NCBI GenBank assembly: GCA_002900995.3
Contig: CM035305.1
Span: forward strand, 3,084,467 to 3,148,466
Direction: 5' to 3'
Length of the DNA: 64,000 nucleotides
Origin: Ganoderma boninense
Taxonomy: Eukaryota; Basidiomycota; Agaricomycetes; Polyporales; Polyporaceae
Shown here: in pieces, positions 38,360 through 60,450 of the stretch
Layout of the letters: the number at the start of each line of letters is the position of its first letter
Numbering within the stretch: position 1 is the first letter of the stretch
Position numbers and translations under genes: made by a program
The notes under the pieces: generated by a model
The model's database searches: none
What the model saw: the letters and a program-made list of their open reading frames with translations, nothing else
What the model was told of the DNA's origin: nothing

Positions 38360-38736
38360 CATACACGCGGGGATTTACAAAATTCGAGGGGGATGAGAAC
38401 GGAATGAAAAACGATAATGTAAAATGTCACCTTTTGCGCGAGATCTTCCCGTAGATAGAAATAGAAATTTATACATTGCCCAGAACGCCCGCGATAACGC
38501 GCCGTTTCGGCCTGCGTTCCGATCGCGTTACAATGTGACGTTCTACGTCACATTCTACGGTACGCCATACGTCATGGAGAACTTCAGGTTTGGCTGAAAG
38601 TTTAGAAGTCAATGAAATATCGAGTTTCGAGGCCGGGAAAACGTCAGAAATCACGCAAAGTTCTCGAAAACATTTTCGTCCGATTACAATTTCAAGTTTC
38701 ACGCGTTACAAAACATTCGTCGACATATGAAGTTCT
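38360..38736. repeat. Left terminal inverted repeat
   Basis: It begins catacacgcggggatttac and aligns by eye to the reverse complement of 59523-59894 over its full length, with roughly four in five bases the same. The best-kept block is the inner part (cacgcaaagttctcgaaaac and what follows). The outermost three to six bases differ between ends. Confidence 0.92.
38532..38554. repeat. 10-bp palindrome in left TIR
   Basis: Arms aatgtgacgt and acgtcacatt are perfect inverted repeats around a TCT spacer. The matching palindrome in the right TIR differs at paired positions. Confidence 0.85.
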
Positions 38737-40406
38737 CCACAAGAAAGAATACTGCGCCCGCTCTCGACGCGACGACCGCCCGCTGAGTGCCCGCCGAGTT
38801 CGCGCCAGTTGCCCTAGGCGGCGCCGCGCGCGCCCGTGTTGGTCGCGTTCTTCGCCTCGACCGGCGTGCCAGAACGCGGCGACGCAGGAGCCGAAAGCTT
38901 CCCCGGGCTGTAGACGGGTCAGCGGGAGTACGGGCGGCGGCGCGATCGAGCAAAAAGGTACTTGGAGGGGGAGGAGGAGCGACGCGCATGGTCACGCCCG
39001 GCCTTTAGGCCCAGGAAGGCCATAATAGGCTGTAGTAGGGTCAGAACTAAACAATAGTCATAGCAAACACAGGGAGAGGACATACCATGTACTTGATGTC
39101 TCTTGAATGACAAAAGGAAGCATGGTTGATGTTGTGGGTGAGGGGGATGAACTGGAGTGAGGAGATGGTGGTGGAGGAAAGGAAGGAGGAGGAGGAGGAG
39201 GGCGCCCTTGTTGAAAAGGTCTTCTGGGCGAGAAAGTTGGGGCCAGGACTGGGTAATGTGATCCGAGAAAGTTAAAACATATTTATTGCAGACTATCAAA
39301 AACACTATGGGCAGGAAAAGACGGTGCATTAGTACAGCTAATCGAGCGTCGCACCTCCATTCGTCTGCTTGAGAAAGTCTCATTAGCGAAGCAATAAAAG
39401 GTTGAGAACGAAGGCGACGCATAGTACGTACTTCGTTTGCCTCGTATCGCGTCGCCGTAGCACCTCCACGCTGTCCACGCAACCCAATGCGCGTTCCGAG
39501 CTACCGCAGTGGGTACGTTACGGGTTGGTGGATCAACGGAGGCGCCCGCCGCGCGAGTGGAACGACGCGCGCGCGCACTTAGATAGTTGCAGCGTTCGTA
39601 GCACCCCGCGCCCTCCTTTTTTACCAAATCGCAAGCGTCGACTTTGGGGCGTAACGCGCGACTGGGACTCACCGCGGCTCATCCTTTTCGCAGACCCCGC
39701 GACCACGGCAACGTTCTATGCGCCCATGCTGCCGCACCCCCCACCGCGCACACGTTGCGGGCCGCGTTCGTCGGGCGGGCTCTCTCGTGCGCAACGCCAT
39801 CCTTTCCTCCTGACGCTCGCGCGCTCAGCGTGATCGTCCCTCCGACCGCACCGCAGTGTCTGAAACGGACGCGGATGCGGAGAGGGTGCGGGCTGGCGTG
39901 CCACGGCCACGGCCCGCAGCAGGTGGGGCTCCCTGGCCAATGTTGGGATGACGACGGCCCATGCGCGTCCTACCGCGTTGGTGACAGCGGCGGAGCGGCG
40001 AAGGACAGGCGTCAGTGGTGTCGGACGCTTCTTTGAGGTCGACGCGCGTCGTCCCTATGCCCGCGAGCTCGAGAGACTCGAGAAGCAGGGCGGCGTGGCG
40101 AGGTGCGCGAGGTCCTAAGGGCGAACGCGATATGACACCCCACGATGAAGTCTACGCTGGGACCCGCGCTCATCGGGTAATGGGCTCGCGGACGCGCGAA
40201 AGGTGGGCGCTGCTACCGCGGATGTCGATGCTCATCGCTCCCTCCATCTATGAACCACAGACCAGTCGGACGGTTTCCGCTAGATGGTGCCCGCAGCCAG
40301 GGACAATCGCATTCACGCGAGTAATAACTTAGCGCATCTAGAGCCTTGGGTGTAGATTGCCAGCGTGCCGGGTTAAACCCGCACAGGGCGCTGTTCTGAA
40401 TCAAAA
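38737..40406. other. GC-rich region of the element without recognised gene
   Basis: This 1.7-kb stretch is rich in CpG (gcgcgcgcgcac and similar). It contains overlapping reading frames of 70-190 codons on both strands, none with a recognisable domain or a plausible spliced protein. A polypyrimidine/polypurine tract (gaggaggaggagg type) lies near 39160-39205. It could be a decayed nested insertion or a regulatory zone. Confidence 0.4.
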
Positions 40407-43346
40407 TTAGACAAAAGGGGCGCCGCTACAGCCGTGCTTCCAACCGTAGATACATAGGTACTTGGGCTCATTATCCTGGTAGTACGTGTCAGCGTGGTGG
40501 ACTAGAATAGAACGAGTCGCCAACCTTATACAAGGGCAAAATGACCACGTCGCCTGTCGGCATCTTCCATCGGAGAAACTGGCAGATGACGCTTGTCTGA
40601 TCAACTAGTTCCAGTGGGCCAAGTCGCGCTGATCGAACCGTGGCTGGGAAATCCGTGTAGTATTGGAAGGGATCGTTTTCGGAAGTTGGTAGTTGACGTT
40701 GCACTGCCAATACAACTCGCTGATCGACCTGATAGATGTACTTGATAGAACCATACTCAGCAGTGGACGCCTGTGATCGAGGATAATACAGGACAAGGCT
40801 GTTCCCGACATGGGTTGATGATCTGGAAAGCGTATAACTTTCGTGTTTACAACGGGCGACCAAAGTCAATCGACCGAGGTCATCGGGGGGGAGCAGGGGT
40901 AACAAGTCGGCAGGAACACTTGGATGTGTCGAGGCGCGGTGTTTGGTGGAACTCTCTGTAGTGGAGGTGGTGGTACTGAAGTTCCAACTACCGTACGCCT
41001 TGTCAAAGAAACACTTTACTTGCCGAAGTGCTTCCGGGCAGTCAGGCCTGTTGAGCCACCGACGGAGCTTGGCCGCTCTTAGGAAGGAGTCTATCAAACT
41101 TGCTTCCAGTTGACCTGTGCCGACATTATCAAAGTCAACTCATTTCATTCAAATCGAAGAAACTTACCAAACTTGTCATTGTGGGGCGTGCGCTGCAGCT
41201 GTCCGATGAGACGCTCAAAAGGAAAGCACCACCACGAGTATATGGGTCCGAACAGGAGCAGGAAGTCGAATATATGAAAGGCAACATGGTTGTTGGTCCG
41301 GTCAGAGTATGAGCCAGTGTGAATCTCTTGAAGGCCACGAAGCCAGCGTGCGAGGTAAGCACGGTACTTGCGCGCGCGCGCTTCAGACATGGTCCTTTTG
41401 CACAGGACGACCACGGCTGAGACTAGGAGCATGGTATTGTCGAGGACGCGCCGAAAGAACGCGCCAATCTCAGGGGTAGCATGGGAGGAGCCTGCACCCC
41501 ACAGAGTGACAAGCGCAATCGGCAAGTAGACTGTGCACATGATTTTCCACTCATCAGCCTTGAGAGTCCCTGCAGCTGCGTCGCCGAAGTTTTGAGGGAC
41601 AGAACTCAGCCAAGTTGGCTTATCGCAGTGGCAAATCACGTCGCGGATTCGGTCCATGACGTCCAGCGTCGCAATCTTCTTCGTGCCGGGATTTGCGGAG
41701 AGTGGCTTCGATCGACGCTAATGGTTTGAAGTTAGTCTGTTGCCTATGTGAGCGAAGAGACAAGATACTTGCCCATGTCACGAGCGCGTCCACCCAGAGT
41801 CGTTTTGTCATCTTTGTTTTCGAGGGTAGCTCCAGACCACGCCCGACGAAACTCAGAGCCTTCAAGTTCTTGCTTAGCAGTCTGCGATGGAGGTCCTCTA
41901 GTCCCTGCTCCTGCTCCTCTTGGCCATCGCCGACATGCCGACAAAGCGCGTGACCGATGGATTCTACCTGGCCTACTTCCTTGTCGGAGAGCCGGACCTT
42001 CTCAGGAAGTTGGCCGTTGGCTTCGGTATTCACGGCCGCGAAGGTGTGTTCAAAGGCAGGCAGAAGGACTTCCGTCTCCTTCGCATTTGCAGATGTCAAA
42101 ACGAGGATGTCGCGGAAGTGATAAGGAATGAGGCCTTCAAATATGCAGTGCATAGAATCGACCCACAAGCTGGCGGGTTGGGTCCCAGTAAGGTAACCGC
42201 ATAACTCTGACCATCGAACACCGTGCTGGGCGAAATCTTGTCCTGCTCCGATGGGCATTGTCGCATTGCGCCATGCCTCCGCTGTTCACGCATCTCCTGA
42301 GGATCCCGGAATACCCAATTCTCGAAGTCTGTGCGTCCACGGGTGCCCTTCCGGAACAGGTACAAACTGGCAGTAGATATGTGCAGAGTGGGATGCGAGC
42401 TGTGCCGTTTTGCGGGCTGCGACGAGATCCATGACGGCAGCGGCGACGGCCGATCGAGATATACAGCCATCGGGGTGCAGAGCAACGCGCGAATGGCGCG
42501 TACCTCGCTCCCACGACTCGCAAAATGTGTCTATGACGGGGGCCAGATAGAAGTTCAGCTCAGTCAGACGGGGTTCTCGTGGGCCCGGGATGATGGCGAC
42601 AAGACCGATGTTCTCGGACTTGTATCGATATTGGTAGGGAGGCTGAGGCATGCCAGGGAAATGATTGTGCAAGAGGTCGACGCCCCACGGACTGACATGC
42701 CTTCAACGTTGAAGCTGTCGACATGCAGGGCGAAAAGCAAACGCATCTCTTCCCCCCTATCAATGAATAGACGACTCGACTGCTTGTCGAACAAGAAAGT
42801 CCGCACAAACCCCGCCTGAAACGGCCCAGTAGCAAAAGAAGGAGGAGGTTCATTGCGCCGAATCTCGCCCATGGTCTCATCGCAGGAGGCATTGATGAGG
42901 CGTACATTTTCGGCGCAGGATAGAAGACCGCTCTCGTATTCCTTGAGATCGTGTACAACGTAGGGACGAACAGGCTTCTGGTTGTCGTTTCCTGGGTGCT
43001 GATCCAGCAGCGGCGTATTGCAGATTCCACCGCCAGACCCAAGTCGGTTGTGGCAGAGAGCAGGATACACGAGGCTATCGCTATCGGGGGCGTTGGAAGG
43101 TGGGTACACAAAATGACAGGTTGGGCAAGCTGCGTACGTGGTAGTACGGGCGGAGAGATTGAATCGCTCTAGAGCATGTTTGAGATTGGCGGGAATCTGA
43201 GAGATAATGTTCTGCTGAAGGGGGGTAACGGGCGCGCCCGAGGACGTGAAGCATAGGCCTAGTAATAACGATAGGCTTCCAAGAAGGAAATCCGACCCAT
43301 CTCGACTGAGTTTCCCGAGGACATTGAATACGATCCCAAGGAACAT
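40407..43346 (-). pseudogene. Tnp2-like (CACTA/EnSpm-related) transposase with frameshifts
   Basis: The pieces match the basidiomycete Tnp2 transposase family from memory. Order: N-terminal region from 43346 with a CPTCHFVYPP zinc-ribbon-like segment and PALCHNRLGSGGGIC; LFALHVDSFNVEGM; NIGLVAIIPGPREPRLTELN; SRSAVAAAVMDLVAARK and SHSAHIYCQF; VRWSELCGYLTG and LWVDSMHCIFEGLIPYHF; DKPTWLSSVPQNFGDAAAG with LKADEWKIMCTVYLPIAL; then FHIFDFLLLFGPIYSWWCFPFERLIGQLQ. Three frame jumps with no room for introns occur near 42637, 42350-42372 and 42281, so it cannot encode a full protein as written. The 3' end is uncertain (stop at 40489, or in another frame at 40407). Sequencing error could explain some jumps, but the neighbouring KDZ and TET genes are clean. 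Confidence 0.75.
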
Positions 43347-43941
43347 GGCAATTTGAGCAACGACATGAGCGCGACTGGCAGGTATATCGTAATGGTGTCC
43401 TGAAACATGCGTTAGATACGTTGTTATGACTGTTAAAAGATCACATAGTTACCCTAGTATATAGTAGTATTAGTAGCCCCCCGGCCATGACAAATCGCCT
43501 GCCTTAGTAGGGAATAGGTGCCGGCCGAGAGACCGCCATACTAATGTTATCCTACCGGCCGGCCTCCTCCCGAGTACATAGTGATCCCTCCTTCCCATGG
43601 ACGCTCTGACTGTGGTAGATAGATGATAGTGTGTATTCCACCTTTAATGTATTGTCATAATGTATGTTTTCGGTCACCTTCCGGTACTTGGTGGAATGGC
43701 CGGCCGGCCTACCACTGCTTGAAATCGCTGCACCGGCCGGTTAGTAAGTCAAGGTAGTAAGAGCAGCGTACCTCTATCGCCTTATTTCGTGGAAGAAGCG
43801 TGTTGTTTTTACGTTGTAGTGCTGTCTTACACAGAGGAAAGTTCATCCCTGCGCGGTGTTCGCGCTTAGGATGCTGCAGGCCTTCCAATTCCATATCACT
43901 GTCTCTGGCTTTTACATTCATGAACGTAATCTAGTTACAAA
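43347..43941. other. Intergenic with clustered CCGGCC palindromes
   Basis: Five ccggcc-containing sites occur within about 260 bp: 43481, 43521, 43555-43564, around 43698-43709 and 43733-43740. The last three are full ccggccgg palindromes. The stretch lies upstream of the Tnp2 relic and downstream of the repeat protein gene. No gene was seen. Confidence 0.6.
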
Positions 43942-45105
43942 TCATGACTCTGACTCTTTGTGATATGCTACATTCTGTAATTCATTCCATACCGCATCCA
44001 CCGAACTCCCATTCTGAACAAGGAACCGTTGGTATGCTCGCCATTGATGAGGCGCCATTGTGAACGACTGAGCAGATCCAGTACCACGAGGTTGTCTACT
44101 AGTGCCATCTAACGCCTCTGCGCCATCGTCCGAGGAGCTTAGACGGTCGCTGTTGACCTCATCGTCGAGCACACCGACCATCGGAAGCTCGGACGGTGAA
44201 GGGGAGGGGACATCGAAGTCGGAGTCCAGCTCTCCGACGGCAGGAATCTCCGAGGGCGAGGGCGAGGGAGCGTCGACTTCTGAATCAATGTCTGATTCTA
44301 GCACGCCTATGATCGGAAGATCGGATGGGGAGGGGGAGGGGACGTCGAAGTCGGAGTCGAGCTCCCCGACTGCAGGAATCTCCGAGGGCGAAGGAGACGG
44401 CACTTCAATATCGGAGTCGGCATCAGAGCCAAGTACGCCGACCACAGGGAGCTCGGACGGTGAGGGTGAAGGGACATCATCCTCGTAGTCGAGCACGCCG
44501 ACCACGGGCAGCTCAGATGGGGAGGGGGAGGGAACGTCCACATTGGAGTCGAGTAAGCCGAGCACTGGAAGCTCTGACGGCGAAGGAGAGGATGATGTTG
44601 GAGAGAGACTGACATCGACGTGCCCGACGCCCATCTCCCGAAGCTCCGAGGGCTCGGGGTTGAACCTATCGACATCGGAGTCTCGGCGGCTACCTATCAC
44701 AAGATTGAGCGGAGACAGAGAGTTCATCTCAACGCTCCTCACTGCCGATCCATTAGGAGTTGGGGATGTGAAAGGTTCCGAGTCTGACTCTGGGTCGTTG
44801 TTGGCAGCATTGAAGGCCCGGCTCGATGAATGACGCCTCATATGACTTGCATCACTTTGCGATAGCTGCGCATGTTCGGGGGAAACTTCCCCCACTATGC
44901 CAATAAAGAATGGTGGGGTCCGTATCGGCGTGGGTGTCTTGATACGAACTTGCTTTGAACCTATTGGTGGTTTTACGTTCCGTAAGCCGGAAAGGACGGA
45001 AGTAAGCTTACCTTCGCTTCCGGTGGCCAATAGGCTTCGACGGGGGGTCACTGGTCGCAGGGCGGAAGGTATTTCGGAGGCTCCACAGGTCGTCTGATTG
45101 TCCAC
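43942..45105 (-). CDS. Unknown acidic tandem-repeat protein (387 aa)
   Basis: A single uninterrupted frame starts MDNQTTCGASEIPSALRP at 45105. Residues about 166-323 are seven tandem units of 20 or 24 residues with the core PSPSPSELPVVGVLDSD, and a degenerate eighth (NPEPSELREMGV) precedes them. Units ending ELDSDFD alternate with longer ones ending SDIDSE, so a two-unit block was probably duplicated. The region is strongly acidic and rich in Ser/Pro and should be disordered. The C-terminal 40 residues (HQWRAYQRFLVQNGSSVDAV) look like a short folded helix pair. No signal peptide or membrane segment. The pure repeat frame without stops over 525 bases supports real coding. No function is recognised; it is divergent from the next large gene. 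Confidence 0.65.
   Translation of the reverse strand: MDNQTTCGASEIPSALRPVTPRRSLLATGSEGKLTSVLSGLRNVKPPIGSKQVRIKTPTPIRTPPFFIGIVGEVSPEHAQLSQSDASHMRRHSSSRAFNAANNDPESDSEPFTSPTPNGSAVRSVEMNSLSPLNLVIGSRRDSDVDRFNPEPSELREMGVGHVDVSLSPTSSSPSPSELPVLGLLDSNVDVPSPSPSELPVVGVLDYEDDVPSPSPSELPVVGVLGSDADSDIEVPSPSPSEIPAVGELDSDFDVPSPSPSDLPIIGVLESDIDSEVDAPSPSPSEIPAVGELDSDFDVPSPSPSELPMVGVLDDEVNSDRLSSSDDGAEALDGTSRQPRGTGSAQSFTMAPHQWRAYQRFLVQNGSSVDAVWNELQNVAYHKESES
44137..44661 (-). repeat. Coding minisatellite: 60/72-bp tandem units
   Basis: Seven to eight units encode PSPSPSE(L/I)P-type repeats. Unit lengths alternate between 60 and 72 bp and keep the reading frame. Confidence 0.85.
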
Positions 45106-45460
45106 CTCTAGGTATATCTTCAGTAGGAGTCATTTTTATTCAGTAGGGCTTTGTGGATCACCTCCGGCACTCTTGGTGGAACGCATAGGCCCATTCCACG
45201 ACGTCCCGGAACCTCTCGGACTCCTTCCTATTCCCATACGAAAGATTTTAGTGCCATGTTATAAATATCTAGCCGCAAGGATGCCTGACTGACCTCTCGA
45301 TGTTCGACGCTGGGGCGCCGGAAGTGAAGACATTGAAGGAAGATGATAGGCGCCGATCATGCGATTGCGCCCGATTGCGCTGACGATCGGCGCCTTTACA
45401 ACACCTCTCTCAGCCTCCTCCCAGTTTGTGCTACAACTCATCGATTCTAAATTTCTCCCC
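45106..45460. promoter_or_regulatory. Divergent promoter between two element genes
   Basis: About 355 bases separate the start of the repeat protein from that of the large plus-strand gene. A near-mirror pair cgatcatgcgattgcgcccg and gattgcgctgacgatcgg lies near 45353-45388. An in-frame upstream ATG at 45359 could lengthen the right-hand protein by 34 residues. Confidence 0.45.
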
Positions 45461-48400
45461 ATGGCTTCCCGCCGACCGCAATTGGCCGTGCCAACCCCTG
45501 AGCAGATCTACCAAGTGCGCGACTACGCAAGCAGGCTGCACTATGCGTTTCAAGTTCGCCCGGCGATCGGCTCTCCATCTCGCCACAGATGGGAGAAGCG
45601 CTTCAAAAAGGATTTTTACGCGCTCCTCCCGATCCTCAACTCCGCCGATATCCAGGAGCTCCCGGACTTCGCGATCGGTTGTGTATGGGAGCACAATCGT
45701 CGACGTCAACCCGATGCCCCTCCGCTCGACATCGAAGCCATTCGGGAAGCAGACGAAAACCATCCGGCCATTCTGTCGGGTCCCGGGAAGCTCAAATACA
45801 AGCGAGCGGGCACCGGGCCCAACGGTCTGTTGCCCGAGCACAGTCTCATTACGGTGTGGTGGGATGAATTCAAAGGTCTGTTCCGCATTTTCATATTAAT
45901 AGAGTCGCTCTGATTTGTCGTTCCAGCAGTTACCCATGCGAGGCGTGGTGAGCGTGTGCCTCCTCAGGATGAGCACGGTATGTCGATCTGGACGTTCCGT
46001 GAAATGCTCCGGATGGTTTTCACTGCGCTCCAAGTTCTCCTCTGCTAATTTGTCGTCTTCCGCAGCAGAGGCATTCGGAGATGAGGGTGAAAGCGAGGTC
46101 GCGGAACCGGAACCGGAACCGGAAAACGGGGAACACGGCGGTAGGCTTCCGCATTCCAGCGGTCCATCCAGTTCAAGTTTGCACGCGGCCCGTACGCGCA
46201 GCAAGACCATCATCAGTGCGCCCGACGGCACGAAAGCTCCTCCCTCCACCAACAGATCTGGGAAGCAGAAGGCCGGAGACACGTCCGGGGGCCGTGGTTC
46301 CTCTCGCCAATCCAAGAAGACTTTTAATCAGCTCGAGAACATCAAGGAGGAGCGCATAGAGTTTGCGTATGTTAATCACGTAGGTGTGCACTCCTCCTAC
46401 GTCCCGGACGTTTGTTAACATTTCGGAACCTCGTAGCCTCGTCCCTGCGCAGCTTGTGTCGCTCGGGGACAGTCATGCCGAGTCAACTTCTTGAAGAAGT
46501 CCGCCTGCGAGAGCTGTTCGTCCGGAAAGTTGGCGTGTTCAAATGCGTTCAAGTATCAAAAGGACAACATACTCGCGTGCTACCTCTCTTTCGCGTACTT
46601 CAAACTCGTCGGCCAGCCCGGGTTTTCAGGCGAGCCAAGCTTCCACCCCAAGAAGCTTCCGCAACCCCTCCCGCCTAGAGAAAGCTTCCAGTGGTTCGTT
46701 GACCAGTTCGAGGCTGCCAAAAAATCTAACAAGGGAAAGAAGAAGGCGCCGGCAGTGGAGGTCCCGGCTCCAGACAGGTCCCCGCCCACTGACGCATCAC
46801 GGCCAGCGGTCGCATCCACCAAAAAACGCTCCGGAAGGCACACCGCCTCTGCGAACGACCAGCAGATCCCCGTAGACCCCCCGCCGAAGGCATCGCTACG
46901 CACCTACCGTTCCGCTCCCCCTCAGTCTAGGTCCCGGAACCCATCTCCTATCTCATCTACGCTCCGGGATAGCCCTTTCAGCGCAGCGCCGTCCCCTCCC
47001 GCGTCTTCATCCGCTCAGTCGACGACTTCACGTACGAGCAGAGGCCGGTCGGAGGCTCCGCGTGCCATCAGAGCACCTCACGGACCTGTGAAGGATCCGA
47101 AAGGCCCCCCGTCGAGGTATTCAACGCTTCTCATGGCCTCACAGGCCCCTACTGAAGCTATCACGCTGCCCTCTAGCGATCTCAGTCTCCACTATGAAAC
47201 CAGGCACAACGGCGACCCCTTCGAACTTGGGAGGCTGTCTGCCGTTGAAGACCAAGGCGACTCTGGTTCAGAGGGCCATACGTCGGACACAAACGCGGTT
47301 ACTGACTTAGGGAACCCTGAAGATCGGGACGTCCCATCTGGCGATGTCCCAGAGTCCTCTGACCTTCCTGGAGACGAGAAAAACAACGACGATGAAAACG
47401 ACAAGCATGACGACGATGACAACAACGACGACGACGACAACGATGGACATGACGCCGATGAAGAGAGCGAAGTTATTCAACCTCGTTCGTCGTCCCGACC
47501 TGCCCCTGGCTTGCGTGCCCGCCAGCGCGCTGCGGGGCGATCTCAGTCCACTGCGGCATCTGTCATCCCAGGCGGCGGTGTGTCTCGAACCTCTCCGGCA
47601 GAGCTGTCCCCGCCTCAGTCGGTTGTCCCCGGCATCCTTCCCCTCTCCGTTCCGGAACTTTCTGGTATGCATAATCCTTATCGAACAGTTCGTTCCATGC
47701 CCTCATGCGTGTCCACAGGGTCCTGGAGAGACCTTCCGAGACTTGCCAATCTTAAACGCGATGGCCGATACATCATTGTCGAGCATCCAGACGATTCGCC
47801 CAAGCCCACATCGCTCGGTGCTGGAAGCGGTATCCCAGACTCCAATACCCCCTCCGCCGAAGCCTCCCATGGTCGACCGGAACGTCCGACGACACCTGTT
47901 CAGAGCACGTTCTATTTCAGCCAGTCAGTCCGTTCGATGGTTGAGGAGACGAAAGAGCGTTACCGAGCTGTATCGGCCATCGCTGTCAGCCTCGAAGAGG
48001 ACTCCGCAACCCTTGGAGGCAAGGCATCCGGCATCGTCGCGCGGTACTCCTTGCTTGAGGGCGGAGTGAAAGCGGCCAAGTCCTGGACCGACGCTGTCCC
48101 CGTTCTCGTCGAACACAGCCGCACCATCGTCGAGGACCTTAACGAGGTCTTAGGCACGCTGGCACATCTGCTGTCGGTGGTATCCGGAATCTCCAACGCT
48201 TTCAGAGTTGCGCCACCTGTCCCTGTGAACTGGTTGGCACTCATCGAGATGCTCGAGACCGCGCGGAGGCTCCAGGACCTACACACGACGGCCTGGGAAA
48301 AGCTGAAGCACTTCGAAGACCAGAGCGAGCCCATCCAGCAGGAACTCTCGTCGTTGCGAGTCAGCGTCGACGATGTGCTGCACCGCCTAGATACGATGCT

Positions 48401-49016: not shown

Positions 49017-49094
49017 GTACTCATGTCGAATGTATTCATATCCCAGTTAAACATTGCAAATTTCCGAGAACGTAACATTCTGCGCGATATACAG

Positions 49095-51863
49095 TTATTG
49101 TGCCCGAGAACGTGCCCGAGTTACCCTTCCGATGGGAGCTGAGGCCTCCGGTTCTCTCGACGCAGCAGCGCGATCGACTCGGCTGCGCGCTCGCGAGGGC
49201 TTCGCCTGTCGTCCTCCCGGAAGTATCACAGGTGTCCCCCGATGAACGTCCGCGTCCTGCGAAGGCGTAGGCGTGCTGTCGGATGACGACCACTGAGCAA
49301 CGGCGCTGTCGCAAGCCTCTGTAACAGCTGCGAGGTGTTCGGCGTTGAGCTCGCTATACGCCAGGTAACCAGGAAGGTCCTCGGGCCACGACGATAGGGC
49401 GTCAGTATTGGCGATGAAGTGGAGGTCGCTGAGAAGAAGCCCGATGCCTAGGCAGTACCGCTGTACGTCGGCTGGAGGCGCAGTCCCCGACGGAACCTTC
49501 TCAACCCATTTGAATAGGGCCTTGACGTTCTTCTCCACGCACTGTGTCCCCTCCGGGACATGGCCAGACTTGTGGCCCCACGTCACCCAAAATACGGGAG
49601 CTTTACCTCGAATCACCGACACTTCCCGAATCTGTGAACCATGTGAGACGTATGAACGTGCAAAGCCGACCTTGTACATACCTTTGCCTCCATCCTCTGG
49701 AGCATAGCTTGATATGGAGCATCGTTTGCGAGGCTGCGAAGATACTCGAACCTCGCGGACCCTTCGGCCGCCACGGTTTGAGGTGCCGGGGGACTGGAAA
49801 ACGTCTCCGGGGCTGCCGCGGAATCTAGTGAGGTTCCGGTAGGTTGGGACGTCGACGGAGGTTGGCGAGTATGCCCAGCCGATGCTGATTCATGGAGCCG
49901 AGGATCGCCTCCCTGCCCGTCGACATCGATAGTCGGATGCCCCCAGGTGAGTACTCCCTCGACTTCATCGTCAGAGGCTCCGTCGAGGCCGTCCGTGGGA
50001 CCGTGCGGCGCAGATGACACCTGAACCCAGGCCTCCTCAAGGAAGTCGTCGGCGACATCGTCCCATTCGCCGGACACTAGCCCCGGAGCGCCAACAAACT
50101 CGGCATCGACCCAGGGCTCCTGCGCCTTGTGCTTCCCCTTGTCGGTGGCTGGCGGAGCCTCCTGAGCGGCATTCGTGAACGGGACAGAGTTCGCGCCAGG
50201 AGTAGCAGCAGGGGATGCTGCGGGCGCATCCCCACCCGCGGCGTCAACGGCCGCGATCTGCTGGAGAACCTTGTCAAGGTCTGCGTCGAGGGCATCGGCC
50301 ATCCGGGAGCCTCCCGGGACTCTAGGACCTGCCGCTAAACCTGCGGGAGGTTCCGAAACTCTGGATGTGTCTCCCACATCGTCCGATGGGGCCCCCTCGA
50401 ACGTAGGCGGCTGCACGACTTTCTTGGCGCGACGTGGTTCGTGTGGTGTATACGTCCCGGCGTAGATGGCGGGAAGATAGGAGTAGTTGGTCTTAGGGCC
50501 CACCTGATAGTGGCTGAAGCGGAACCTGTTGTCCTGACCTTCCGGGCGTGCTTCGATCTTCGCGACATGTTTGAAGAAGTCGACGAGCTGGTCGTCAGTG
50601 ATCTTGCTAGGATCCTCGAACTGAAAACCTTCTGGTAACATTCCGGGAGGGAAGAACTTCTCCTGGTTGTCACGAAGAGACTGCCAAGGGACAAACCGCT
50701 CCTCACGACCAGAGGCGTGACCTGAAAGATAACAACCAGGCCATGTAAGCCTTTGATTGGCAGACAACATGGATACGAGGCGTACTGTAATGGATCCGGA
50801 GGTACTCCCGGAGGATACGTTGACGGCGGTAAGTTGGGGTCGCTTTCCCATTCTCCTTGTCGGTCAGAATCGGCGTGCCGTCGGAGTGAAGTTCGAACGT
50901 AAAGGGCGCGGCAGCCTGGCGGCGCGTGCCTTGGACCAAGGCGAGCGTGTCTTGAGTGGCGTGCTCCGGTTCGAGGATGGCTTGGAAGAACGTCCAGGCC
51001 TTCCGGCGAAAGTCCTGGTCCCAGCCCTTGACGTTCCGGAACAATGGCGTAGTCGGGTCAGCGTCCGCCCACAACTCGGTCGTGTCGTACCTGCAGAACG
51101 CTCCGTGAATAAGTGGGCATTACTTTCCCTTGACAAGTGGCGCACTTACACTGTCGCTCGGAGCCGGCCGTTTGTGTCCTTGAACATGCCGTATATGAAC
51201 ACCGGCATGCCGCACTGCGTCCAGAACATGCTTCCGACTGACCGCATCCACGCTGGACCCCGCTTCTCAGCCATCCTGCGACATCATTGAGCATTCAACG
51301 AAATGTAGGACAATACGTTAGCACTCACCATGGCTTGAGTTCGTTGTCGGGACCTTGCACCGCCCAGAGCTCAGCCAGACGGACGTACGGCTGTTGTTCT
51401 TCATCCGGAAGCTCGTCCCAAAGACGATGAACTGTTTCATTCCACTGGACGATGTAAGCACGGTCGTCAGGCTCTTCACCGTCGTTTGCCTCTGCGACAG
51501 TGTCGCGGATGAGGTCGCGGTTCTTGTGGCCCCAGATGCGCATGGGGCTGAAGTCGTTGTAGATGCGAAGGGGGAGACGACCGCTGCGCTTCTCGGTATG
51601 GTTTTGGAACCAGTTGCGAACTTTCTGCGCTCATCGTGTGCTCAGCGCAAGTCCGGAGATGTTCAGTAAACATGGGCACGCACCCCTGTCATGAACTTGA
51701 CTTTGTAAGCATCAGAGTCGTCGAGCTGCCTGGATCTCAGGATGTACTTGGCACAAGCGATGCGGAAGGCCTCTTTGGTTGGGTTTGGAGTCGACCGGTA
51801 TTCCTCCAGGCGAGCTTGGAGGAGGCTTTTGTCTTGCTCGCTCAGGTCGGTTTCGTCTGGCAT
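49095..51863 (-). CDS. Unknown element protein with WFQN homeodomain-like motif
   Basis: The start MPDETDLSEQDKSLLQARL at 51863 begins a helical region. The second exon reads KVRNWFQNHTEKRSGRLP, which resembles helix 3 of a homeodomain. Then come FSPMRIWGHKNRDLIRDTV and NETVHRLWDELPDEEQQPYV, a pattern like an HMG-type or other small helical box. Later exons give TPLFRNVKGWDQDFRRKAW and a segment YLSGHASGREERFVPWQSL before a long Ala/Pro/Asp-rich linker. A C-terminal module follows (VSVIRGKAPVFWVTWGHKSG, VEKNVKALFKWVEKV) and the basic tail GRVTRARSRAQ ends at 49095. At least six introns. It is divergent from the TET/JBP gene, 383 bp apart. Function is unknown; DNA binding is an inference from the motif and the basic tail. 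Confidence 0.65.
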
Positions 51864-52246
51864 GGCCTATGAATGGACGTTCAGTAGATGGACGACATGA
51901 GTGCAACGTGCCGCGAATGTGTGCTTACGAGGTGTCACAGAATAGCGAGGCAAAGCAGGAACAGATGTACAGTGGTGGGCGGGGACAGGCAGGTGAGAGC
52001 GGTGGCGTAGCGGTGAAACTGGGCTGGATGGCCAAGCCCCACCACATGTGAACTTATAGATGGTCGGAGTGACTGAGAATGGAATGCGTCGCGGAGTAAC
52101 CACTGCGCCGTCCTCGAGCGCTTAATCGCCATCAGTGGGATGTCCAAATCGGGATAGGTCCCTGGCATGCCTTTTCGCCGTGGTGCAGACCAGTCCTCTC
52201 TTTCTCCCACCATCCCCTACCGCTTCATCCCCCCAGCTGCACCACG
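51864..52246. promoter_or_regulatory. Divergent promoter between WFQN-protein and TET/JBP genes
   Basis: 383 bases separate the two starts. A pyrimidine-rich run (tctctttctcccaccatcccc) precedes the TET/JBP ATG. Shared control of both genes is plausible but not shown. Confidence 0.45.
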
Positions 52247-53694
52247 ATGGCCGACGTTTTGTTTAACATGCCTGCGCAGTTCCACCGGCGTGCCGCCACC
52301 GCCTCTTTTATTGTGGAACTGTATGAGTTCTTCTACGAAAATGGTCCTGAGACGGACACCACCCGCGGCAAGCTTTTCGGGGAGCAGCCTGCCCCCCCGG
52401 ATCATCTCGACCTTGAGGCCGTCCAAGATTGCCAAGCGATAGCGTCCACCTTGGTTCGGGCAGTGCTAAACAGATGTAAGTCAGCCAATCAGTTTGATCC
52501 AGTGGAGCTAATGCCATCTTAGATCAAGTCGATTGGACGGTCGAGGAATACCAGAAAGACATTGGTCGGAATGTCCTCCTTGATCCCGGACGAGAGGATC
52601 TCCTCATGCGAAAATATTCACCCCTTATCGACGTCCACGAGGTTCTCAAGCGACTGGATCAGCAGCTTCCGGTCGTGAGCGAGCCTGCAGTCATCACTGA
52701 TAGTGTGGGCAACATCCTCGTGTGGTCGCTGCCTGGTGTGATCCCAGAACGTCGGCAGGTGCGGAAATTAACAGACGTGTCTCTTTGCGCGTGTTGACTT
52801 GTTTTTAGGGCGACATGTTGACTGCCACCAGATTTCTGGAAGCCCAGCTGACCGCGACCTATGCGGCGGCGGATGAACCTCTGTCCAAAACTTGGCGGAC
52901 GGCCGGGAACATATATTTTTCAAAGGGTATAGAGTGGACGTCTGGCACGACACTCCTATATCCGGCTGGGTTTGCGCAAGGTCATACGGTGTGTTGCGGC
53001 GTTATACCGTCTCGGAAGGTATCTTCTGATGTTCCGCCACTAGGGCCCCAAGTTCCGACCGACCCCGAGTTCAAATGCGAAGGCCGAACGGGTTACCAGC
53101 TGGATGCACGCATTCGAAACGGCCGGCGGGCTCTTGGACGGCATTTTGGCGGTAGCGCATCCGGCACTCTACGAGGAGAGCCAGGTTGTTGCGGAGCAGG
53201 TGTTTCGCAACTTTGGCGCATGCCGATCCCTGCTATCGCATTGGCCAACTTGTTTCAGTTCGACACAGGTGATCGTCAATCGTTCCACTCCGCTGCATCG
53301 GGACATCAGTGGACGAATCGGATGGTTGGAGCTGCTTCTCACCCTCGGAACGTACGGAGATGAAGCCGTACTTCAACTCCGGAACCTCGGAGTGAGTCTT
53401 CCGTACACGACCGGCTCCGTCGCGCTACTGTGCGGCCGACAAATTTTGCACGGTGTTCCGACGGTGGGGGGGGACCGCATTTGCTACGCATTCTACATGA
53501 ACAAACATTTGTTCAAGAAGGTCGACGCCGTTCTGCCTGGACCGGCGGTTTTACCTGTGGACAACGACGAAGGCAGCGAGGGAGAGCAGCCCCTGGAGAC
53601 GGAAGCATCTGCTGGTGAGGGAGAGTCAGCAGGTGGGGCAAAGGGTTCCGATGAGGACGCAGACGGATCAGATGATGTGGGTTCCGAAAATTAG
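52247..53694 (+). CDS. TET/JBP-type 2-oxoglutarate/Fe(II) dioxygenase
   Basis: TET/JBP enzymes oxidise 5-methylcytosine or thymine in DNA. Exons 52247-52475, 52523-52758, 52809-52990 and 53100-53694 join into 413 codons with consistent phases. The N-terminal part (MADVLFNMPAQFHRRAATAS; VDWTVEEYQKDIGRNVLL) is family-specific. The double-stranded beta-helix core holds the iron motif HxD in PLHRDISGR (His 53296-53298, Asp 53302-53304), then GRIGWLELLLTLGTYGDE, the distal iron His in QILHGV (53449-53451) and an arginine in GGDRICYAFYMNKH suited to bind 2-oxoglutarate. A 50-residue acidic tail ends the protein. All catalytic residues are present. The exon 3/4 junction is inferred from the frame. 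The gene stands directly upstream of the KDZ transposase on the same strand, the arrangement seen in basidiomycete KDZ elements. Substrate and activity are inferred. Confidence 0.87.
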
Positions 53695-53886
53695 CACGGT
53701 ATGCACGCAGACAATGACGGATTATGACGGATGGTAGATAAGGCTCCGTAATAGTCCGAAGGCGCGGGTGTCAACTGACAATCCGGCTGTGCGCCGTGCG
53801 TTTGCCCTGAGGACGCACTCTGCTTTGTGAACACCTCCCTGCTTCCCATCGCCCGAATCCCCGCCTCCACATTATTTTCGACTGCT
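53695..53886 (+). other. Short spacer between TET/JBP and KDZ genes
   Basis: Only 192 bases separate the stop from the next start, so the KDZ promoter must be very compact. An alternative in-frame ATG at 53827 would shorten it further. Confidence 0.5.
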
Positions 53887-56800
53887 ATGGCGCGCCGTCG
53901 CTTCCTTGACGCACCTCCTTTCTTCGAGGAGATGTCAGTTAAAGTGACGAAAACCCGCCGCGGATTAAAAGTGGGTTTCAAAAGTAATCCCATTGATTTC
54001 TCATCTCTTCATCCGGAAGACGTCGGACCCTCGGATTCAGCCTCCCTACATCCTACGCTTCAAACCGCCTCTGAGCCGAGTGAGCTTCCCGACATCCCCG
54101 GATACAATGAGTTCACATTCGAGGATGCACAACCACTTCGTCCAAAGGCGAAAGTAAATCGTTTTGACGTCTACGCTACTGAGAATTAAATTCTGATCAT
54201 TTGCCTGGCTTTGCAGTCCCAGAATGACTATCAAAGGGAGTATCTCGACATCCAGGACGAATACATTTACAGGCAACTCATGAGCGAAGGGCCCCCGGAG
54301 TCCGGAGTAGCGTCTTGCGGACATCGGCCAGCTTCATGGAAGTGCGTTACCTGCCACGCGGAACCCACGTTCTGTACGCAATGTTGTCGCGACACACACC
54401 ACGCGCATCCACTGCATCGCGTCGAGTTCTGGGAAGGGACGTACTATCGACCGGCTTGGCTTCGGCAGGTTGGAGTCCGGATTCATTGCGGTCATGGCGG
54501 ATCGCGCTGCCCGCGAGTGGAGGCGCAATCTGGTCCGGAAACGTCGAACCGTGGTGCTAGTGACGATCCGACCGCCGACGTCCACCTTCCATCTCTCGAT
54601 CCCACCGACGCCGGCCCTACTCCCGTGCATCTTTCCGACCTCCCCACATTCCCAGATAGCCTGGACGCAGAGACCGACGACGAAGAGATCCCATACATGG
54701 TTGAGCAGCCGGAGTCGGACTTCGAGGACGAGGACGGCGATCTATATTACGGCACCAAGCCTGACCGTCTGCTTCCGGAGGTGTCAGAGCTGCCGTGGTT
54801 TGGGGAGAGTCCCCGACAGCCTGCGCCGACGCCCAGGTCCTTCGGTAGCCTCCGCAGTGACCGCATGGTCGTCGTCGTCGATATCGATGGCATTCACGAG
54901 CTTCCGTTCACATTCTGTCTGTGTCCCAATGCTCCGACAGAGGATATCCAGCTCCTTGACCTTGGTTACTACCCCGCGACCTCAACACGACCGAAAACCG
55001 TCTTTACGAAGCGAGTGCTGGACGACTTTTTGCTCTCCAATAGAGAATGCAAGACGTCTCCCCGCAACTACTATAATAAACTTCGGCGCGTTACTAACCC
55101 TTCTTTGCCACACATGGTACCGGTAAGATAAACTCGTTGCAAGCATGCTCATAACGTCAACGCACGTAGCTAAATCATTGAATTGTATAGGACCGCTACA
55201 AGGAGTTACTGCGAGTCTCGCGTCAGTGGCGAGTTCAGCAGATGCGTAAGGCGGCTGGCTTTGGGCACCGAGATGGCGATATCGGGCCCGGAGACTTGGC
55301 AGTGCGGTGCCCGGCATGTCCGCAACCAGGCTTAAACCTGCAAGACGACTGGGAAACAGATGAAGCGCAGTGAGGATTTGAACTACCACTCATACCGCGT
55401 CGCAATGGGACTCGGTACTGACCCCTCATGCATAGGTGGAAATATACCCGTTCGGTAGTCATGGACGGCAACTTCAGTGCTCAACATCGACAGATGCGGA
55501 ACCCCTCGGACGACGTTCCGCTGGCTGATGGACATGCGTTCATGGTGGAGGAGAAACCATACAAGGAACACCTACGCACAGCGAAGGAGTACCAAGAGGT
55601 AGGCCATCTCAGCTTTGCAGAGTGAAACAGGCTGACGGACATCTACCTGCAGAAGTCGACATGCCACGACCATCGCGCCGTGTTTTCGGCAACGATAGAG
55701 CGAGCCAAACTCGAGGCTACCGGTATCGGCGCCGCTGCATGCTCCCGACACGGATTCTTTTGCCCCCATGCGTGCGTGGACTTCCAGCAAGGTGAACGGT
55801 ATGTGTTACCTGCGCGCTCATCTACCGAGCTGGTGCATATATAACGTCCGAATCAGGCAGAGGAATATGGATTACGTTCTGAATTGGATACTCGCTTTCT
55901 TGAACGGCCTCCGGAACGTCATTGTCCTGTACGACATCATGTGTCAGTACTTTGTCCATCTGTACGACCGGTTTGACAAAAGCCCCCACCTCCACATGCC
56001 AGCCGGCCTGACTATCCTACGGGGTATTGGTCAGTTCCACGTCCACGGGCACGTTCCGAAATGCTTTCCCCGTTTCTCCTGCAACTTCATCCCTGGCGCT
56101 GGCGTACAAGACGGCGAGATTATAGAGACGCTGTGGAACAAAACAAATGCCATCGCTGACAGCACGAGGGGAATGTCGGCGGCACATCGCCGGGAGGTCA
56201 TCGACGACCATATGAACGATTCGAACTGGATGAAGTTGACCAGAATGAGTGAGTGGTCCCCAAGAGCCTAACAAGCCCTATGTACTGCAGCTGACGCGTC
56301 CCGATTCAGCTGTGATTTTGATTAGGAAGTGGAAGCGAGCGTGCAACGAGTGGAAGCCCGCAGTCACAGCTTGGGAGGAACTCTCGGCAGCTTCCGATGG
56401 TGAGACTGTGGCGAAGTGGACTCGCGAGGCAGAGGCCGCGGACAAGGCTCGAGAAAAGGATCCAGCCGCAATGGATATTTACGACGTCGATGCCACACCG
56501 GGTGAGTAGCGACAGCAATGCGACACGATGTAGCTAACAGCCTGTTTCCAGTCCCAACTCGCAAGGAGATCCAGGTCATGCTCGGTGAGCAGGAGCTTGC
56601 GGATGGTGAACGATCTCTGGGTGCCGCAGATTGGATCTCAACAGGACTTCGGATTGAGGAGACCAAGTAGGTTCCGGAACTTGAACAACGCTCTAACGCT
56701 GACGGTGAACGTTCAGGTTGGGCATTGCGTATGCTGCGCGCCATACCGCGTCTGGATCGGGGACGCAAACGCGACTGTCTTTAGTCCAACAGAGACAGAA

Positions 56801-57768
56801 ATTGGCCTCCGCGATCATCGCCTTCCACAAAACAGGAAGGGAGCACATGCCCGGTCTAATCGCCGCTGAAGGCGGAGACATGGACCCTAACCACACTGAT
56901 CTAGGAGTGCAATGGGACGAGGTTCCGGAAGCGGTCGCATCCCAGCGCGAAGAGGGTGCGGCGGATACTCCGGAGACTCATCCTCATGGGCTACCATCGA
57001 CGTTCGGCATCAGAAAACTACGACAGGCCGATCTTTTGGACCTTGCGCGAAAAGAGCGGAAGCTTCGCGAAGGCCAGATGAACGATGCGCTGCAAGGTAT
57101 ACGCACTGGTATTGGCTACAAGTCGCTCCTCTACCGTGCGAAGGTACGGAACGCGTCGTCATACCGGTCGAAGCTCCGCAGCTTCGATGATGTCCATGTC
57201 GCCGACGAGGGGGTGCGGAAGCACGTACGTATCTACATGCAAAGCAGGGCAGCGATGGAGCGGCTGTTCGATCCCGAGGACGAGGGTGACCGAGTGGCAC
57301 TTGCGGGCTTCAGAAGTCGGTACCGGGAGATCCAGAAGGAAGATCTTAAAGCATCTACCGCCGTGCTGGAGGCCTTTACGCCAGGGCTCCGCAATCAGCA
57401 TTCCGCTTGGTTCTGGAACGTCTCTGACACAGAGACGGGGGACGGAAGCTCCTGGACACAAGAATGTAAGTGCACGTATTGCTCCGTGGTGCAATGGTTT
57501 GACGGTACTTGAAGATCGACGAATGCTCTGGCTACGTGCCTACGCTCGGAAGCAACGATGGGATGAGGAAGTGGTCTTAGTGCCATTCGAGATGGATTGC
57601 GTTTTGCGGTGCTTCGGGACGAAGGCTACAGATTGGGAGGGGTGGAGCACTGGAGCCCACACGCCGGGACACGCCGCGTTTGCGTTGCGCCAAGTTGCGA
57701 TGTGGCGCAATTTGAAGGACCATGCCCGCTCGGCGTTCGCGTCTGCGCGAAGTACTCATCGGCCGTAA
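53887..57768 (+). CDS. KDZ-family transposase with CxC2-type cysteine cluster
   Basis: KDZ (Kyakuja-Dileera-Zisupton) proteins are DDE-type (RNase H fold) transposases. The start MARRRFLDAPPFFEEM (53887) matches the usual N-terminus. The second exon holds the cysteine/histidine cluster CGHRPASWKCVTC, CTQCCRDTHHAHPLH, FWEGTYYRPAWLRQ and GVRIHCGHGG, the CxC2 type found with KDZ transposases. The catalytic region has VVMDGNFSAQH (Asp 55465-55467), VLYDIMCQYF (Asp 55933-55935), HVHGHVPKCFPRFS and DGEIIETLWNKTN (Glu 56116-56118 or 56125-56127), followed by MNDSNWMKLTRM. Downstream are FDPEDEGDRVALAGF and the C-terminal WLRAYARKQRWDEEVVLVPF. The last intron joins E to YRRMLWLRAY. About ten introns; no stop or frameshift was found, so the protein looks intact. 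Confidence 0.88.
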
Positions 57769-57835
57769 GAACCATGTAAACATTGAACGTAATCACTACA
57801 ATAATAGCGGAATCTGCTGATAATAGCCTAGAGCC

Positions 57836-58620
57836 ATGGCAGCCACACTACGGAAGGCTGGACGTCCCGCACACATACCATGCACACACCATGAATTTGA
57901 GTTTCCGAAACCGTTCCGGGTGCTTCCGGGAGCGGTTGGCGTTCGAGTTCGTGAAAGCGCGCTGCTGAGGATCTTTGCCCACACCGTCACGGAGAGTCGA
58001 TCGTGCGTACGCGACTCAGCATTCATTAATATTGAGCCATATCTGACACAGTACTTCATAGAAAACATGAGAGGAGCCTCCGGAGCCTCATCGATAGCAG
58101 CATCTCGACAGGTGCTGCAATCTGCGAGGCTGGAAATTCTAATCACCCTCCACCGCATTTCTGAGGCCCTCAAGGTCTTGCCTGATAATGCCGGAAGCTT
58201 GACAGTTCGACGATGGAACACGGGGGTTGCACGGGAACTTGTAGGTCTCTCCACCGGAACCTTTGGTATAAAATGGTTGACTGTTCCGATGACCCCAAGT
58301 GGATTGCGATTTCCGCCGTTGGGCTTTCTTTCGCATCATCTTTGATAGATGCCGAGGATGAGACTCCTCACGATATGCTGCTGCCACCCCTGGCCCATCT
58401 CCTTCATGTCGCTACATGGAAGGACCGTAGCTTGTCTATTGACGTGCGGAAGGTTCGGAAGGAGGTGTTCAGCGTCCTGGAGTCTCTCCGGAACGTTGGT
58501 CTTCCTCTTGACGAGGGCGGCGCGTTGCAACGGTGGTGGATGTGGCCAGAGGAGGCTCCGGAGGGAGTACAGCGTCCATCATGGTGGAACAACCCTTCCG
58601 GTGCTGTGGTAACTTGCTGA
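57836..58620 (+). CDS. Unknown small element gene downstream of KDZ
   Basis: The first exon reads MAATLRKAGRPAHIPCTHHE and continues through FRVLPGAVGVRVRESALLRI, an alpha/beta-looking segment. The second part, in another frame, reads WIAISAVGLSFASSLIDAED, then LSIDVRKVRKEVFSVLESLR and RWWMWPEEAPEGVQR. The switch lies between about 58170 and 58240; an intron from gtcttgcctg to ttgacag would fit but is short, so a frameshift is possible. Both halves have plausible protein composition and codon use. No family is recognised. It runs in the same direction as TET/JBP and KDZ. Confidence 0.45.
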
Positions 58621-59422
58621 GGTTCTTCATATTGCCATTACACCCCGCTGAGACTTTAATCAGGCCGCTCCGATACCGCTCTTTGACTCTGATTACGAAG
58701 ACCTTCAAGGAGGTGGCGGAAAACCTCCGTGTTCCCGAGTCGGAATGTCGTAGCGTCGCAGAAGGAAGTCGGAACATGGATAAGCGGAAGGTAGCAAAGA
58801 GGGAGGCTCCGACGGGCCGGGAGGTAGTAGGATGGATTCAAGTGCGAGAGCCTATGTGCTAGACACCTCCGACTTGACCTCAGTCTCTAACATGCAGTGT
58901 ACAGGAGACTAACGGCATTAAATACCTGTTATGTGCGACACTGGGAACATGGACCGCATTTTCAGCTCGCACAGGTGTAAGACCGCGGTGTGGAGGGGGA
59001 ACTGTGGAGGGACATTCCCGGAATAGCGTCCAAGCAAGAGCAGACTGCCGCAAACCTGAGGGGAACTGACCTCATGAGCACCGGGAAAAGCCCTTTGGGC
59101 TAGTGCACGTCTTCGAAATGGCGTTAAAAATGTGATTGGAAAGATGCGGCCTGTATGGACGGCCGGTGAGGAAGCGCAAGCAAGGCGAGCCGCAGGCCGA
59201 CCTGCGAGCCTTGAGATTGTTCACACGGGCCGGGCAGCAAGCGCCAGCAGTCGGTGCGTGTGTGCGCAACGCCTGAATAGGTCATATGTAGAGTGGAAAT
59301 GGGTGAAACAAGGCATATGACATAAAGGGTGCCGTTCTACATACATTAACAGCCATGAATAGAGCAGGACATGAGCCAGGCTATGTGTAACCAGAGGTGC
59401 GGCCGGTGAGCATCGCCACATA
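58621..59422. other. Right subterminal region of the element
   Basis: About 800 bases up to the gap. A further overlapping frame (58533-58862) shows nothing recognisable. No gene is supported. Confidence 0.4.
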
Positions 59423-59522
59423 NNNNNNNNNNNNNNNNNNNNNNNNNNNNNNNNNNNNNNNNNNNNNNNNNNNNNNNNNNNNNNNNNNNNNNNNNNNNNN
59501 NNNNNNNNNNNNNNNNNNNNNN
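59423..59522. other. Assembly gap (100 N) inside the element
   Basis: A placeholder of exactly 100 N next to the right terminal repeat. The assembly probably broke because the two terminal repeats are alike; the missing length is unknown. Confidence 0.95.
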
Positions 59523-59894
59523 AGAAGTTCGTATGTCGGCGAATGTTTTGTAAAGCGTGAAACTTGAAATTGTAATCGGACGAAAATGTTTTCGAGAACT
59601 TTGCGTGACTTCTGGCGTTTTCCCGGCCGTGAAACTCGATATTTTATTGACTTCTGAACTTTCATTAGAACTTGAGGTTCTCGACGACCTTGGGCGTATC
59701 GTAGAACGTGACGTTCTACGTCACGTTGTAACGAAGTCGGAACGCGGGCCGAAACGGTAAGTTTTCGCGGGCGTTCTGAACAATGTCACATTTTCATTTC
59801 TATCTACGGTATAACATCGTACAAAAGGTGACATTTTACATTGTCATTTTTCATTCCGTTCTCAATCCCCTCGAATTTTGTAAATCCCGCGTGA
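59523..59894. repeat. Right terminal inverted repeat
   Basis: Read in reverse complement it begins tcacgcgggatttacaaaat and follows the left repeat to the gap, so its inner limit cannot be seen. The flanking TA is at 59895-59896. Confidence 0.92.
59705..59727. repeat. 10-bp palindrome in right TIR
   Basis: Arms aacgtgacgt and acgtcacgtt surround TCT. Compared with the left copy, both arms differ at the paired third position, so base pairing of the dyad is kept. Confidence 0.85.
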
Positions 59895-60450
59895 TAGTCT
59901 CACAATCCCCCCGGCGTCCACGACCATCGTCATCCTGTGGCCAAGTCGGGTCGCCCAGGCCCATGCCTGCCCGTCTCCTCCCCATTCTCACTCCGGGGGG
60001 CCCGGTGCCCCATCGATAACACGCCGCGAAGGACGCGTCGCGGTCCCCCATAAGTATTGCGAGCGAACTCGGGCCGGCGTCACATCCACATGTGCCGTCT
60101 GTGACTACCGCGTCTGTGACCCCCGCGTCTGTGACGAACCGGGGATCCATCCGACTTGCGAGAAGAGCCTAATAGAAGAGCGCGCTGTCTCAATTGCAAG
60201 TACTTCGCCCTCTCCGTGCGCACCGGGTTTCATTGCGCACCTTCCGCGAGACTGCACACCACCTGACAATCCCTCGCCTTTTCATAGTGGTGCAATCGGA
60301 CACTGCCGGACTTATCGGCTGTACCGGTAAAAACGCTTCCGCGGGCCGCAAGGCGTCAAATTAATATGCAACAAGTCAGCGCTCGCGAGTCAGTCATACC
60401 TTCCCTCTCAACTCTGTCTTGCCCTTCCATCCCACCCCCTCCTCCTCCGA
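59895..60450 (+). promoter_or_regulatory. BCAT-proximal half of the shared promoter, filled allele
   Basis: From TA (59895-59896) to the BCAT start it matches 33092-33646 with scattered substitutions and one extra C. After the insertion this is all that remains close to BCAT on its 5' side. Confidence 0.75.

Follow-up and report, generated by a model that had tools for sequence, protein, structure and literature searches.

TET genes located next to KDZ transposase genes were reportedly described by Iyer et al. 2014, together with additional proteins that are said to include a divergent HMG domain. Here, we analysed a stretch of 64,000 nucleotides from the basidiomycete Ganoderma boninense (contig CM035305.1, positions 3,084,467 to 3,148,466; 'the window'), in which a TET/JBP dioxygenase gene lies beside a KDZ transposase gene and which an initial annotation had read as containing a single bounded 21.5-kb transposon with its full cargo. 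Transposons of this kind, TET+ Kyakuja elements, are already published and have been reported from five orders of Agaricomycotina, Polyporales included; Kyakuja elements show 7-bp target duplications and 5' CA..TG 3' termini and are devoid of terminal inverted repeats (TIRs) (Kojima 2025, PMC12730594). The KDZ1 element of Cryptococcus encodes a KDZ transposase and a CxC1 cysteine cluster, measures ~11 kb and has 241-bp TIRs and 8-bp duplications (PMC12810828), so that some KDZ elements do bear TIRs.

Our analysis suggests that the apparent 21.5-kb TET/KDZ transposon consists of two nested DNA transposons, a Kyakuja element residing in an EnSpm/CACTA-type element, with a recurring gene module, a reading to which we assign a probability of roughly 0.8. 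The genome searched was the 55.6-Mb assembly of 74 contigs, designated C1, C4 and so forth; the window lies on C2.

Borders of the inner and the outer element

The two elements and their junctions comprise the following features:

38361..38363, no strand: left 3-bp target duplication ATA; the same three bases stand beyond the right end
38364..38736, plus strand: left TIR of the outer element, starting CACGCGGGG; 100% identical copies on C4, C5 and C9 (on C9 over 292 nt, then a gap)
40525..43429, minus strand: five exons encoding the catalytic part of a tnp2/CACTA-like transposase; PF02992 match, homologue in C7, gene model
43435..43441, no strand: AAAAGAT, taken to be the 7-bp target duplication on the left of the inner element; present once on C4, where the site is uninterrupted
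43442..59422, plus strand: inner TET+ Kyakuja (KDZ) element, left end CACATAGTTACCC shared with other places, right end in the gap
59423..59522, no strand: assembly gap of 100 N, probably nominal, which conceals the inner right end
59523..59893, minus strand: right TIR of the outer type, 85.5% identical to the left one
59894..59896, no strand: right 3-bp target duplication ATA, read directly beyond the right repeat

Nesting is seen at the left junction; the right junction falls within the gap. For a query starting at 43300, the match to an outer-type copy on C4 ended at 43442 and the matches to other places started there, within a few bases. The C4 copy continues through the insertion site (TTAAAAGAT-AACGTACC); its alignment with the window spans 5,060 bases and contains 6 substitutions, plus 35 gap blocks, which are perhaps read errors. 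Since this uninterrupted copy is nearly identical, the insertion appears young, unless precise excision took place at C4. At 43441/43442, the inner element separates two coding blocks of the outer element's transposase gene, which it probably disables.

The left end CACATAGTTACCC occurs at eight places, the window included, and exact 7-bp target duplications border all four sisters of which both ends were examined:

C10:996992-1013595, 16,604 bp, 7-bp duplication TTCCGCG
C6:439832-455611, 15,780 bp, 7-bp duplication CATGTCC
C4:277021-285761, N gap inside, 7-bp duplication CGCTAGT
C1:6218970-6247158, 28,189 bp, 7-bp duplication GGACTCG

Right ends have TAATGGAACGGGCTC in common, which has seven exact sites genome-wide compared to one for the reversed pattern. 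The inner element starts with CACATAG. Next to a duplication, the right end reads ..GGGCTC in all four cases, and inspection by eye revealed no TIR in the Kyakuja copies on C10, C6 and C4. The inner element, ~16 kb in size, appears to be of the TET+ Kyakuja type: like the published elements, it combines KDZ and an AG-type TET with a 5' CA and, judged from its sisters, 7-bp duplications and an apparent lack of TIRs, whereas the 3' end of its family reads ..CTC instead of TG (PMC12730594). With Cryptococcus KDZ1 it shares the KDZ transposase and a cysteine cluster; unlike it, KDZ1 has TIRs, 8-bp duplications and a cluster of the CxC1 type (PMC12810828). The window's Kyakuja enters the gap at 59423, ~170 bp short of where a weak alignment with the C10 sister would place its end, and under nesting the concealed end would be expected to read ..AATGGAACGGGCTC, then AAAAGAT, then outer AACGTACC... 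Two further observations concern the copy at C4:277021. It is identical to the one at C1:250290 over the first 300/300 bases, another recent pair, and its interpretation as a TET-less Kyakuja derivative was dropped as unsupported, its lacking half coinciding with the N gap.

The paired inverted ends noticed in the initial annotation are real. They are 85.5% identical over 373 columns and constitute the only inverted repeat of at least 40 nt in the window (14-base seed), found as two segments. They were, however, wrongly ascribed to the KDZ element and are not confirmed as the borders of one element with the cargo, the left end of which lies at 43442, and the flanking TA proved to be part of a 3-bp duplication, ATA. 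Termini of the form CAC..GTG were found in the window and in relatives on C7 and C1, accompanied by the 3-bp duplications ATA, TAA and AAT, respectively. Because such ends and duplications characterise EnSpm/CACTA elements (Kojima 2025, PMC12730594), we assign the outer element to this type, with which it may also share a tnp2-like transposase. The C7 relative is diverged but N-free and retains both ends (C7:3896300-3917394, 21,095 bp, TAA on either side), and it contains a homologue of the tnp2-like transposase. This second transposase of the window (40525-43429) was absent from the earlier gene list; our model of it excludes upstream exons that run into the inner element. Unlike fungal EnSpm/CACTA elements, the outer type is very large (21.1 kb at C7), carries inverted repeats of ~1.4 kb and is interrupted by Kyakuja in the window. 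C7 and C5 have a long outer body in common, none of which is visible in the window, so that either the gap hides many kb or the outer copy suffered a deletion; much of the outer element is probably inside the gap (59423-59522).

A gene module around TET

The inner element carries, in the following order, open spliced gene models comprising all of the annotated cargo:

43442..44041, no strand: subterminal CGGCCG / GGCCGGC repeats; CGGCCG four times in 600 bp, reached by 0/200 shuffles
43655..45237, minus strand: acidic protein with SPSPSELP repeats; uncertain gene model, of which 300 codons could be aligned with the C10 element
45359..49016, plus strand: gene A, zinc-cluster-like with a long C-terminal region; C-x2-C-x6-C-x9-C-x2-C-x6-C
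49095..51863, minus strand: gene B (WFQN protein), HMG-box region, six exons; gene model, homology and fold comparison
52247..53694, plus strand: TET/JBP dioxygenase of the AG type, with Glu where CcTet has Asp337; domain match and CcTet alignment
53812..57768, plus strand: KDZ transposase bearing a CxC2 cysteine cluster; domain matches, with less certainty for the exons of the C-terminal part
57832..58620, plus strand: short gene behind KDZ; same place at 15/29 TET loci

This set recurs. Window and examined part of the C10 sister are colinear, and in the sisters on C10, C6 and C1 genes A, B, TET and KDZ all lie between the two ends. Genome-wide, 29 Tet_JBP matches were obtained (22 over the cut-off). 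At least 24 of these 29 loci have gene B in divergent orientation within 9 kb upstream, and at none of them does a scored gene B locus lie differently within 9 kb of TET; KDZ follows on the same strand within 7 kb downstream in at least 24, and gene A lies within 14 kb upstream in at least 18. The counts for B and A are lower bounds, as the best 55 of 110 and the best 53 of 66 candidates were scored. The short gene was found within 12 kb downstream at 15 loci, on the same strand in 15/15; the notion that it is unique to the window was rejected, since homologues at protein level exist elsewhere in the genome. Viewed from gene B, 24 of 29 loci (best 55 of 110 candidates) are near a TET gene compared to 0.27 expected by chance, and one of the five others is on the gap-bearing C4 element. 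KDZ loci number at least 96 among the matches listed, of which 28 are near a TET gene and only 26 near a gene B; B thus goes with TET. The initial annotation was right in seeing KDZ and TET/JBP accompanied by genes that travel with them, and an insertion of apparently recent date; co-occurrence of the cargo at other genomic places, the check that it had proposed, turned out positive.

Codon comparisons show purifying selection on A, B, TET and KDZ. With nonsynonymous (pN) and synonymous (pS) differences given in this order, and pS at or near saturation, the comparison with C10 yielded 0.32 and 0.76 for B, 0.31 and 0.74 for TET and 0.23 and 0.78 for KDZ, and that of gene A with C4 0.30 and 0.65.

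Both enzymes named in the initial annotation were recovered. The KDZ transposase matches PF18758 (E 6.4e-50, 170.3 bits, cut-off 26.6) and CxC2 (E 7.4e-23); the TET/JBP domain was detected with E 2.9e-14, and the nearest solved relative is CcTet of Coprinopsis cinerea (E 1.5e-19; PDB 8jkk, 7vpn), with which the window's TET shares HxD (as H-R-D), the distal His, the Arg (alignment by eye) and Gly at position 331. The cysteine spacing of gene A does not vary among the 17 loci, out of 22, at which it was read, and no homologue of A was found among the best 7,984 public protein candidates by shared words. By fold comparison, gene B encodes an HMG-like fold, beside weaker homeodomain-like and GTF2I-like regions, and it fits the divergent HMG protein reportedly present in the KDZ/TET association of Iyer et al. 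2014. Its comparison with the sequences of solved structures gave three matches at E 0.7-2, none of them meaningful, and that of the HMG piece with a viral structure library gave no match at E <=0.001. The gene B model is 99% identical to a public Ganoderma boninense protein; none of the named matches listed (7, then 9) came from outside Ganoderma. That public protein bears the name 3-isopropylmalate dehydrogenase, which our findings do not support.

CGGCCG is concentrated near the ends of the inner family: at seven left and three right ends, the outermost 200-700 bp contain it at a density of 6.6-13.3 per kb, compared to 0.3-0.5 per kb in three element interiors, and 2.0 per kb on the window's incomplete right side. 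Four right ends examined later contain 4-6 copies in 501 bp each, reached by 0/500 shuffles. GGCCGGC is less evenly distributed, as shuffles reached its count in 14/200 cases at C13:1084781, 6/200 at the C4 right end and 28/500 on C3.

GAL4-type zinc clusters bind CGG triplets, which makes gene A the natural candidate for a binder of these repeats; by analogy, the repeats are only consistent with CGG half-site binding by protein A. We favour an element-encoded module for anti-silencing and transposition, of which we infer the binding and demethylation steps. KDZ would cut and paste the inner element, and TET would oxidise methylated bases on or near it, by which promoter and ends might escape silencing. 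By binding to the CpG-rich CGGCCG repeats close to either end, element-coded DNA-binding proteins, protein A above all, may recruit TET and/or the transposase, and the HMG protein B may bend or package the end DNA. C5-methylase domains are encoded at four places of the host genome, with five matches over the cut-off.

The role of TnpA in plant CACTA (Spm) elements lies in transposition. Proteins A and B might likewise serve end recognition and synapsis instead of aiming TET, and we regard this as a real possibility somewhat short of even odds: subterminal repeats at both ends and an HMG-like fold suit such a factor, but B follows TET (24/29 B loci, best 55 of 110 candidates) and accompanies only 26 of the 96 listed KDZ loci. 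A further reading is that of an aimed demethylase, in which A and B recruit the element's own TET to the CGGCCG ends, each lineage's ends are kept accessible and CACTA nesting provides a route for TET between superfamilies; in this full form we consider it speculative and rather unlikely. The idea of an element-coded protein that counters silencing on its own sequence has parallels in TnpA of Spm and VANC of Vandal; unlike these, the inner element would add an encoded dioxygenase. A sequence-specific anti-silencing action is mentioned for a Vandal-element protein (PMC12730594, introduction). Escape from silencing is an inference here, as it is in the published text consulted.

With respect to novelty, the consulted text on TET+ Kyakuja (PMC12730594) describes neither the order of the accessory genes nor a zinc-cluster gene, the short gene or repeats at the ends. 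No description of the zinc-cluster module, the end repeats or the nesting was found in the literature searched, which excluded the text of Iyer 2014 and the supplements of Kojima 2025, and a search for KDZ nested with CACTA found none. The zinc-cluster gene module, the CpG-rich end repeats, the CACTA nesting and the Asp-to-Glu change of TET may be new. Two questions are touched, namely how a transposon-borne TET finds its target and how TET genes move between superfamilies. For the former, the zinc-cluster and HMG genes and the CpG-containing end repeats supply concrete protein candidates and a defined DNA site with which a targeted escape from silencing could be tested. For the latter, transfers of TET between transposon superfamilies have been reported without a border signature (Kojima 2025, PMC12730594), and a TET+ element within an EnSpm/CACTA-type element is a plausible intermediate.

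Weighing the evidence

Several observations speak against the reading of two nested elements with a targeted module. The right border of the inner element and its right 7-bp duplication fall into the gap and are unassembled. The outer transposase, as a hand-joined fragment, scores below its cut-off for PF02992 Transposase_21 (E 3.6e-5; 23.5 vs 28.6 bits). The window's two outer ends are ~14% different, whereas those on C7 are 99.4% identical across 1,366 aligned bp and those of the C1 relative, ~46 kb apart, 99.2% over 1,049 bp, and the right outer end may derive from another copy. The short gene has no match in the C10, C6 and C1 sisters. Since scoring covered the best 55 of 110 candidates for B and the best 53 of 66 for A, TET-less B or A loci may be missed. 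Gene A is weakly constrained in the comparison with C10 (pN 0.47, pS 0.74, saturated). Zn_clus fits gene A weakly, being listed for 9/10 pieces, over the cut-off in 2/10 and with E 0.6 for the window's own piece, and the best Foldseek E-value of the HMG piece is only 3.5. The window, C10 and C6 had drawn attention to the CGGCCG repeat prior to any test of it. Neither of the two elements shows a depletion of CpG (observed/expected 1.06 and 1.15, compared to 0.97-1.03 in the host), which disfavours a strong effect of methylation.

The end divergence raises the question whether the nesting is right but the repeat at 59523-59893 stems from another outer-type copy, by a scaffold misjoin or as a composite of two copies' ends. 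Besides the divergence, the N gap directly adjoins the right repeat, and the outer copies on C4, C5 and C9 are likewise broken by assembly gaps. Against this stand the exact ATA on both sides, with a chance of ~1 in 64, and flanks that resemble, by eye, two head-to-head host genes. The matching ATA points to one outer insertion, and we consider the origin from another copy unlikely.

Still less probable is that the window's TET acts mainly on N6-methyladenine (6mA), or has lost activity on 5-methylcytosine (5mC), so that 5mC escape is not its role here. Position 337 was readable in 25 of 29 copies (ungapped reading) and is Asp in 21, Ala/Val in three divergent copies and Glu in the window only, by which the latter differs from CcTet. 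In CcTet, replacement of Asp337 by Thr, Ser or hydrophobic residues abolishes 5mC oxidation, and D337F retains 6mA activity (PMC11040006). Asp-to-Glu is a conservative change, however, Glu is not mentioned for CcTet in the consulted text of that paper, and the window's Glu may be an assembly error. If genuine, the change constitutes a natural experiment on substrate choice, as it affects the residue by which 5mC and 6mA activity are kept apart in CcTet.

The reading of a single TIR transposon of 21.5 kb, with KDZ, TET and the whole cargo on board, is hardly credible and was rejected: paired ends and a matching 3-bp duplication do enclose everything, but the cargo has its own left end at 43442, common to seven other places, such Kyakuja ends are flanked by 7-bp duplications in four sisters, of which those on C10, C6 and C1 enclose A, B, TET and KDZ and lack the window's TIRs, a kind of finding that the initial annotation itself had named as speaking against one element, no Tet_JBP or KDZ match falls within the C7 outer relative among the matches listed, and at the left junction the uninterrupted outer copy on C4 already refutes a single unit, except if this copy arose from that same unit by precise excision.

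Related elements and flanking genes

Divergent TET-like genes with an HWD motif at C1:648748 and C12:2270750 lack gene B and are convergent with a KDZ gene ~2.4 kb off; judged by sequence, they represent a different TET-KDZ arrangement. A second family related to the outer element has CACTTCGGGG / CACTTCGGGGGTTTCG ends, located near C1:3034223 and C1:3080071 with AAT on both sides, which look like a single 46-kb copy. In the outer element on C7, an open reading frame (C7:3902381-3904006) contains protein-kinase-like motifs (HGDLRPQN, DFDWAG; by eye), and CACTA-type elements of this kind may bring cargo of their own. The C4 outer copy includes, ~5.4-12.1 kb from its left end and shortly past the Kyakuja-free site, ~6.6 kb without a match to C7 and may hold another insertion. 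In the window, a second 100-N gap lies away from the nested elements at 33677-33776. The host flanks resemble, by eye, a 6-phosphogluconate dehydrogenase gene (37419-38013, minus strand) and a branched-chain aminotransferase gene (~60900-61300, plus strand), and the outer insertion seems to be placed in the shared upstream region of these two head-to-head genes.
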